The notes under the pieces were generated by a model, which searched no databases, was not told the origin of the DNA, and saw only the letters and a program-made list of their open reading frames with translations. A DNA stretch of 43,028 nucleotides from Pelagibacteraceae bacterium AG-359-O02. GTDB taxonomy: Bacteria > Pseudomonadota > Alphaproteobacteria > Pelagibacterales > Pelagibacteraceae. Positions within the stretch are counted from its first letter, which is position 1, and each line of letters begins with the position of its first letter. Of this stretch, positions 31,878-33,852 are shown piece after piece. Where the stretch lies: positions 1 to 43,028 of the forward strand of contig QCEU01000009.1 in the NCBI GenBank assembly GCA_003280485.1. Direction: 5' to 3'. The position numbers and the translations under genes are program-made.

Positions 31878-32831
31878 TTATATATTAATTTTATTTAATG
31901 CATTATTTTTAAAAATATTTGCCTCACGTATATATCTTCTAACCATTTGTGTTGTTTTATGGCCTGTCATTGCCATTATACTTCTTTCATCAGCTCCAGA
32001 ATCAGCAGCTACTGTTGCAAAACCCGACCTTAAACTATGACCTGCAAAATTTTTGTTTTCGATACCTGCTAACTTCAAATACTCTTTCATTAACAAAACT
32101 ACAGATTGGTCAGTTAATCTTTTGTCTGTTAATGATAAACCTTTAGAAAATCTTCTAAAAATAGGTCCAGACTTAATTTTAGAAATTTCTAACCATTTTT
32201 TTAGATTTGTAACAGGACAATAAATTTCATTATCGAAGTAGGGTAGTCCTTTAGTCATTCCTTCTCCGTATTGGTCAGTTTTTGATCTTTTAATAGTGAT
32301 TTTAAGACCCTCAGGAACAAATTCTAAATCCTCATGATCAATTGAAATTAGCTCGGTTCTTCTAAAGCCTCCTCCAAAGCCAATTAAGATTATTGACTTG
32401 TCTCTAAGTTTTTTTATTTCTTCAGTTTTTTGTTCATTTATTACATTAATAATTAATTTTAAATGATTGATTAATATAGGTTTTTTACCTTTCTGAATAC
32501 TTCCTTTGACCCTTCTTATTCCCATTAAATTTTCAACAATGATTGGATGTTTAGTGTCTAGATAATGCCCTTTAAGCCTATGAACCATGCTTATTGATAC
32601 TAATCTTCGTCTTAAAGTGCTTATTTTTGAGTTTTTAGAGAGATGGGTAAGGTACAATGAAACTATTTTCGGCTCTGTTGGTAATGAATTTAATCCATGT
32701 TTTGCACAAAAAGCTCCAAAGTCTTTAAAGTCCGACTTATAAGCTCTTAGAGTATTATTTGCTTTAGAGCTTTTAAGATTATTTAAAGTTGCCTCATGAA
32801 GCGATTTTAGGTCTGTTGTCAGTTCATTCAT
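31878..32831 (-). CDS. Tyrosine recombinase / integrase
   Basis: A 317-residue site-specific recombinase. The N-terminal core-binding domain (about 10-105) starts with the pattern T-L-R-A-Y-x-x-D. The catalytic domain has all expected residues: Arg157 (GFRRTEL), Lys184 (KRSKTD), His265 and Arg268 (HSLRSG), His291 (TGHKT) and nucleophile Tyr300 (RRYIREAN). It appears functional. It is similar in size to XerC/D but not clearly one of them, and more like recombinases of integrated elements. Directly before its start lies a 35-bp dyad (32835-32869) with the layout of a recombinase core site. FkbM follows 5 bp downstream. Confidence 0.92.
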   Translation of the reverse strand: MNELTTDLKSLHEATLNNLKSSKANNTLRAYKSDFKDFGAFCAKHGLNSLPTEPKIVSLYLTHLSKNSKISTLRRRLVSISMVHRLKGHYLDTKHPIIVENLMGIRRVKGSIQKGKKPILINHLKLIINVINEQKTEEIKKLRDKSIILIGFGGGFRRTELISIDHEDLEFVPEGLKITIKRSKTDQYGEGMTKGLPYFDNEIYCPVTNLKKWLEISKIKSGPIFRRFSKGLSLTDKRLTDQSVVLLMKEYLKLAGIENKNFAGHSLRSGFATVAADSGADERSIMAMTGHKTTQMVRRYIREANIFKNNALNKINI

Positions 32832-32834
32832 ATA

Positions 32835-32869
32835 ATTACTATTGATAACAATTAATTATCGCTAGTAAT
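32835..32869. repeat. 35-bp interrupted dyad at the recombinase start: candidate crossover site or operator
   Basis: Two 14-nt arms are inverted around a 7-nt centre. The left arm is ATTACTA-tt-GATAA (32835-32848), the centre CAATTAA (32849-32855), and the right arm TTATC-gc-TAGTAAT (32856-32869). Twelve of 14 positions per arm are exactly complementary; only the dinucleotide at 32842-32843 and 32861-32862 breaks the symmetry. Tyrosine recombinase core sites have this architecture: two inverted arms of 11-14 bp around a 6-8 bp crossover region. The site starts 4 bp before the recombinase ATG. It could instead be an autoregulatory operator. No second copy was seen in the window by eye. Confidence 0.5.
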
Positions 32870-32916
32870 AATATAACTCATTTAATAAGTCAAGCATTTA
32901 ATGTAGAAGAATATTT

Positions 32917-33561: not shown

Positions 33562-33592
33562 AGCTTTAGATTAAGTTATCCCCAGTATTCAT

Positions 33593-33852
33593 CCCTGTTG
33601 AAAACTCAGTATATTCAACGATAAAGTGATACATACAACCTACTCTATCTGATAATGTTATAAATGAATTAAGAGGCAACTCTTAACTGACCAGCTAGGG
33701 AAAAACCGAGAGGTTCAAGCCTAGAGGGCAGAAAGCTCTGCAGAGTAGCGCTAAAATTGTAGGGTGGACGGCATGGCGGTAGCGCATACAACGACGTGCC
33801 AAAAACTACTGTTCTTTGTACCTGAAAAGGTGCAAGGAAACAGGGTTTTTTT
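33593..33852 (+). ncRNA. Highly structured RNA of unknown family
   Basis: Between the DUF2938-like gene and ogt lie about 260 nt that are much richer in G and C than the surroundings and packed with helices. Seen on the plus strand: TTAAGAG-GCAA-CTCTTAA (33669-33686, GNRA loop); a nested hairpin CTAGG/CCTAG (33695-33724) enclosing AACC-GAGA-GGTT, again a GNRA loop; GCAGA-AAGC-TCTGC (33728-33741); CTACTCT (33640-33646) pairing with AGAGTAG (33742-33748); and a possible pseudoknot of TTGTA/TACAA (33757-33761, 33787-33791) with GGCATG/CGTGCC (33770-33775, 33795-33800). It ends in a strong terminator. A TTGAAA-16-GATAAA promoter candidate (33598-33625) would give a transcript of about 220 nt. I could not match it to tmRNA, RNase P RNA, SRP RNA, 6S RNA or a known riboswitch. 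Confidence 0.65.
33809..33852 (+). terminator. Strong intrinsic terminator at the end of the structured RNA
   Basis: CTGTT-C-TTTGTACCT (33809-33823) pairs with AGGTGCAAG-G-AAACAG (33828-33843) through about 15 pairs with one bulge and two G-U wobbles, closed by a GAAA tetraloop and followed by GG and seven T (33846-33852). It is the clearest terminator in the window. The T run ends only 5 nt before the ogt ATG. The segment AACAGGG at 33839-33845 can alternatively pair with CCCTGTT at 33593-33599, which would break the base of the hairpin. Confidence 0.8.

Follow-up and report, generated by a model that had tools for sequence, protein, structure and literature searches.

An IMES-2 RNA gene in Pelagibacteraceae bacterium AG-359-O02: flanking signals, refined fold and distribution in SAR11

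IMES-2 (RF02035) is, to our knowledge, an RNA family that was defined from ocean sequence and whose function is unknown. According to literature from 2009, it is reportedly expressed in ocean samples. IMES-1 (RF02034) shares the name series and is said to be another marine RNA described in that 2009 study; IMES-1 matched none of 36 SAR11 genomes, with no control positive either. Another system that invites comparison is 6S RNA (RF00013), which is characterized by a long hairpin with a central bubble. Like IMES-2, it is a free-standing bacterial RNA of comparable length, but the fold is different and a scan of the DNA described here gives no 6S match.

Two papers, PMC2704228 (Meyer, 2009) and PMC6429828 (Stav, 2019), each scanned one SAR11 genome. 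The term 'IMES' is absent from the main text of the latter paper and was not seen in the sections consulted of the former. In the portions of the open-access literature that could be searched, IMES names occurred only in a squid genome paper ('IMES-2' once) and in a chemistry paper. A search of the open-access literature for psRNA together with Pelagibacter found nothing.

The locus lies on contig QCEU01000009.1 of Pelagibacteraceae bacterium AG-359-O02; the whole stretch of 43,028 nucleotides that was analysed is referred to as the window. The original prediction pointed at a compactly folded RNA that could not be placed in any family. The latter part fails, as scanning the entire window against Rfam 15 at the curators' thresholds returned two matches only, a tRNA and IMES-2 (Table 1), and thus confidently places the stretch in this family (159.3 bits, E 4.5e-42, cut-off 54.7). 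Such a hit was the first of the outcomes that had been named as refuting the prediction. The model is fully covered (positions 1–141 of 141) with the consensus helices formed; two model positions are flagged, apparently representing one non-standard pair. A single IMES-2 copy was detected in the genome, which is 84.7% complete. We are nearly certain of the family identity and of the status as a free-standing gene. The family was already known, whereas its placement, the promoter and terminator, and a finer fold are added here: the Rfam model includes neither promoter nor terminator, and the consensus line of the match shows no pseudoknot.

Table 1. Features of the IMES-2 locus and its surroundings, in window coordinates
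Feature	Position	Strand	Remark
Xer-like tyrosine recombinase gene	31878–32831	minus	
Two abutting 9-mers, DnaA-box-like (TTWTNCACA twice)	33576–33593	+	Place conserved upstream of the RNA
Promoter element TTCAACGATAAAGTGATAC, covers the −35 region	33614–33632	+	Conserved among copies
Likely −10 element GATAAT	33651–33656	+	From sequence reading and comparison of copies
IMES-2 RNA core	33662–33802	+	RF02035 model 1–141, 159.3 bits
Hairpin P1, GNRA loop (GCAA here)	33669–33686	+	100.0% of cells paired
Hairpin P2, 4x4 internal loop and GAGA tetraloop	33687–33731	+	Paired cells: outer 99.0%, inner 91.0%
Hairpin P3, loop holds a pseudoknot strand	33735–33765	+	Main helix: 6/6 pairs with double changes
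Hairpin P4, loop holds a pseudoknot strand	33770–33800	+	5/8 pairs with double changes
L3–L4 pseudoknot	33748–33752 (GCGCU) with 33781–33785 (AGCGC)	+	Five pairs, covarying
Intrinsic terminator hairpin and T tract, 3′ end of the gene	33803–33851	+	Hairpin in 39/39 copies

The physical properties that had drawn attention to the stretch are real. The GC fraction reaches 0.43–0.49 in 150-nt windows, compared to 0.15–0.37 in the surroundings, the predicted folding energy is −77.4 kcal/mol vs. −53.5 kcal/mol for shuffled sequences (z −5.7; 0 of 200 shuffles as good), and the GNRA loops GCAA and GAGA were both found again. Moreover, the compensatory changes that were to be sought in homologues are present, so that the second refuting outcome, their absence, does not apply. 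The alignment contains 39 of the 41 distinct cores among 61 loci, leaving out the truncated L060 as well as L005, which is nearly identical to L004. In these 39 copies 98.0% of the cells are paired and 29 of the 41 scored pairs, which include the pseudoknot pairs, have changed on both sides, a level that was not reached in any of 500 shuffles. Fold and covariation hence bear out the claim of a structured RNA gene under selection.

The nested fold consists of the hairpins P1 to P4. The letters of the P1 loop vary yet remain GNRA, with GUAA or GCGA in relatives, and the inner loop of P2 is shorter in g2 and g8 copies. Of the longer-range helices that were proposed initially, the closing pair CTACTCT/AGAGTAG survives in only 4 of the 39 copies, and its 5′ arm lies between the promoter elements, upstream of the presumed transcript start. 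The crossing helix TTGTA/TACAA is paired in 61.1% of the cells with no double changes, and it competes with P3, which does covary. GGCATG/CGTGCC is not a crossing helix and corresponds to the ordinary hairpin P4. As a separate observation, one g5 copy (L053, 1498–1640, minus strand) has the usual 5′ half, while P3, P4 and the terminator are very different, as though its 3′ half were a module that had been swapped.

A pseudoknot does exist, although its strands differ from those that were suggested and are located in the loops of P3 and P4. It is paired in 96.9% of the cells, and three of the five pairs have double changes (a count reached in 17 of 500 shuffles). Its covariation score of 0.181 compares to 0.079 for shuffled alignments (0 of 500 as high), with six slid controls all being lower, while the count of further pair types was equalled in 147 of 500 shuffles. 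Pair 92–130 is broken in five copies and pair 93–129 in one. Because the changes are found in several genera, for instance in L038, L045, L053, L056, and L057, the covariation of the pseudoknot is not the result of one inherited event.

The complete IMES-2 unit measures approximately 275 bp and comprises its own promoter, a predicted RNA of approximately 190 nt and an intrinsic terminator. The promoter that was initially read as TTGAAA-16-GATAAA is not the conserved one. The elements that the copies have in common are located approximately 30 nt further downstream, namely AGTGATAC (33625–33632) and a GATAAT-like −10 element, from which transcription would start near 33662. The upstream block has the order paired 9-mers (about −87 to −74), AATCAAC-N-ATAAAGTGATAC, a loose −10-like element and the RNA. 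With at most two mismatches the paired 9-mers occur in 12 of the 39 copies, from five genera, vs. 2 of 20000 random 50-nt windows, and with at most four in 35 of the 39 copies vs. a fraction of 0.023 of the windows (5 or 6 mismatches in the other 4), a contrast that serves as a guide and not as a probability since the motif was picked post hoc and the copies are related. The pair in the window itself has four mismatches. The idea that these signals are shared with other loci was rejected on comparison with reversed controls: the promoter element has 19 matches in 16 genomes, three of them being IMES-2, vs. 20 for the control, and the paired 9-mer pattern has 6 matches in 17 genomes, two of them being IMES-2, vs. 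4. Six of the other promoter-element loci were scanned and contained no Rfam RNA.

At the 3′ side, the proposed intrinsic terminator stood up to comparison. The hairpin has at least 8 pairs in every aligned copy and is followed by a T tract in most of them, the T run being short or broken in L034, L037, L039, L041, and L048. A simple terminator scan of the window left this plus-strand terminator unreported.

The same unit of paired 9-mers, promoter, RNA and terminator adjoins unrelated genes in different genera. In g1 it is flanked by ogt on one side and, on the other, by a gene for a small membrane protein, a DUF2938 gene or the recombinase gene itself. The g5, g6, and g9 units have mnmA on one side and a membrane gene in convergent orientation on the other. 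In g2 the flanking genes are a nuclease gene and an SRAP gene, the latter convergent, and a single g8 genome has the unit next to a SelO-like gene. The neighbors called mnmA, SRAP, nuclease and SelO are what we take them to be on reading their sequences, whereas the names DUF2938, ogt, EamA and recombinase were computed here. In the mnmA context (L032–L041), the paired 9-mers overlap the last mnmA codons, wholly or partly, and the end of mnmA may have been lengthened where the cassette sits.

With strict filters, one copy of IMES-2 was found in each of 200 out of 397 genomes of the SAR11 order. The RNA is present in 75 of the 151 best assemblies and in 6 of the 13 genera of the order. In a class-wide sample, 3 of 385 genomes matched, all three belonging to SAR11, with filters so strict that weak matches can be lost. 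Among 80 IMES-2 loci listed from the genome collection, all are from Pelagibacteraceae or Pelagibacterales. Three exact patterns were unmatched in viral contigs, and one blastn search of phages found nothing either, searches that diverged copies would escape. A laxer search with our own model R1 in 20 genomes lacking IMES-2 gave no convincing copy; 6 of the 20 had matches with E-values of 0.075 to 0.99. Three of these six matches lie across what are presumably rpoA and rplQ, judged from reading the translations, with 14.7–16.7 bits (E 0.0006–0.002 when those 9 kb are searched alone), and were regarded as having arisen by chance in coding DNA. On a tree built from linked genes of 47 carriers and 16 non-carriers, in which 22 of the 60 inner branches are open and the genes may have a history in common with the insertion, presence changes 6 times (starred branches force 4) vs. 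14.3 times when shuffled. Presence is therefore clustered, yet the unit was gained or lost several times. As complete SAR11 genomes without IMES-2 exist, the RNA would be an accessory regulator and not a housekeeping RNA.

The initial choice between a free-standing RNA gene and a cis-regulatory leader can be settled to a large extent in favor of the former, since which gene follows the RNA depends on the genus, and in g2, g5, g6, and g9 this gene is convergent. It is very improbable that IMES-2 is a cis-acting leader of ogt, in which terminator read-through switched by a ligand or protein would set the expression of the alkylguanine repair protein. In g1, ogt does begin just past the terminator (in the 20 loci that match the start pattern, 51–64 nt separate it from the core) and may depend on read-through. 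However, a constant downstream gene, the mark of such a leader, is missing among 119 loci from the genome collection, which show two contexts, ogt/recombinase in 74 and mnmA/F7 in 45, by a pattern that misses the g2 and g8 types. Besides, ogt was found in 16 of the 18 searched g1 genomes that lack IMES-2. All 16 have an empty site, with the upstream gene ending at −9 to +14 nt relative to the point where the ogt match begins, so that there is no room for the unit. These clean empty sites, together with the several neighborhoods and the six presence changes, would also fit a selfish or mobile RNA element without host function. This reading is improbable as well, given that each matched genome has a single copy, that the core in the window has no ORF over 40 aa, and that the core is identical to the letter in 19 genomes whose neighboring genes differ by 5–9%. 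Specifically, the core is exactly the same in 19 of the 61 loci, and 40 sampled pairs of these, which were selected for agreeing cores from the best-scoring matches and thus represent the family where it is most conserved, have an average identity of 92.4% in ogt, 90.9% in the recombinase and 94.5% in EamA (34 pairs for the latter). In the same 40 pairs the promoter region is on average 91.3% and the terminator 98.5% identical. As the promoter has drifted like the neighboring genes, purifying selection explains the identity of the core better than recent spread of the cassette. This constraint is not uniform, since in 14 diverse g1 copies the core is only slightly more conserved than the genes (on average 80.8% vs. 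72.3–75.8%).

A free-standing gene with its own terminator and a patchy presence among genomes would also suit an antisense regulator that pairs with mRNAs in trans without Hfq, for instance via the P3 and P4 loops or the joints. Conservation of the unpaired letters is compatible with such a role, as 28 of the 62 unpaired columns have one letter in at least 90% of the copies. Nevertheless, this reading is rather unlikely: the conserved strands of the two loops are engaged in pairing with one another, and the compact fold offers no long open seed. Moreover, Hfq was detected in 0 of 26 SAR11 genomes, the genome studied here (84.7% complete) included, with the control being positive in 5 of 14, and its absence from all 26 makes an Hfq-dependent antisense mode unlikely. 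A further option is that IMES-2 stands in for 6S RNA by binding RNA polymerase. It is of 6S-like size and free-standing, and a 6S RNA was recognized in 0 of 37 SAR11 genomes (control positive in 5 of 14). However, the long hairpin and central bubble typical of 6S RNA are missing from IMES-2, roughly half of the genomes do without IMES-2, and carriers and non-carriers equally lack a recognized 6S RNA, which makes this role extremely doubtful.

The best explanation in our opinion, which could about as easily prove wrong as right, is that IMES-2 is a protein-bound, Hfq-independent RNA that acts in trans and is expressed from an activated promoter. Of its components, action in trans, as a compact RNA without Hfq, is quite probable. 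That one or more proteins would hold the RNA, either as a ribonucleoprotein or as an RNA that titrates the protein, is a more tentative proposal. Alongside the 28 of 62 unpaired columns mentioned above, 7 of the 10 pseudoknot columns have one letter in at least 90% of the copies, as do 24 of the 72 nested ones, meaning that unpaired and pseudoknot letters are at least as conserved as those of the nested helices. Conserved letters outside the nested helices fit a surface that is read by something, although the conserved loops could instead serve RNA pairing or catalysis. Columns without any variation are evenly distributed (13 of 72 nested, 11 of 62 unpaired, and 4 of 10 pseudoknot columns) and thus do not demonstrate a special binding surface; because such letters do not accumulate outside the helices, protein binding is put forward with reserve. 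As for expression, the lack of a consensus −35 element combined with the conserved upstream block suggests an activator. The promoter would be activated by a factor that binds either the paired 9-mers further upstream or the AACNATAAAGTGATAC element.

By sequence resemblance of the 9-mers, DnaA is a candidate for this factor, and dnaA is present in 11 of 11 genomes. The replication initiator could then switch the accessory IMES-2 RNA via the two boxes, coupling the replication state to the protein held by the RNA, with the whole being a single-gene cassette that is gained and lost. This scenario is a long shot. A link to DnaA by position was looked for through sampled skew and box searches, which gave no support: the GC skew over 20 sampled stretches of 20 kb in each of the genomes G015 and G007 did not place IMES-2 at any fixed distance from origin or terminus, and near dnaA there are 0–3 exact DnaA boxes per locus in 11 loci, without a cluster. 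The stretch at the skew minimum of G015 (L201) contains 7 exact DnaA boxes over 15 kb, compared to 0–4 in the other 19 stretches. In the same genome, the IMES-2 locus is located near the maximum of the sampled skew.

The main value of the locus lies in the natural pairs of genomes with and without the unit and in the refined fold. A cassette that is cleanly present or absent, with relatives that have a natural empty site, makes the function of IMES-2 testable by comparing strains. Since no Hfq and no recognized 6S RNA were found in the SAR11 genomes searched, whether or not they carry IMES-2, a structured RNA that is conserved in such streamlined cells is all the more informative. Elsewhere in the window, a near-palindrome, TTACTATTGATAA-CAATTAA-TTATCGCTAGTAA, is present at 32838–32870, just upstream of the Xer-like tyrosine recombinase gene, as expected of a putative dif-like site beside its recombinase.
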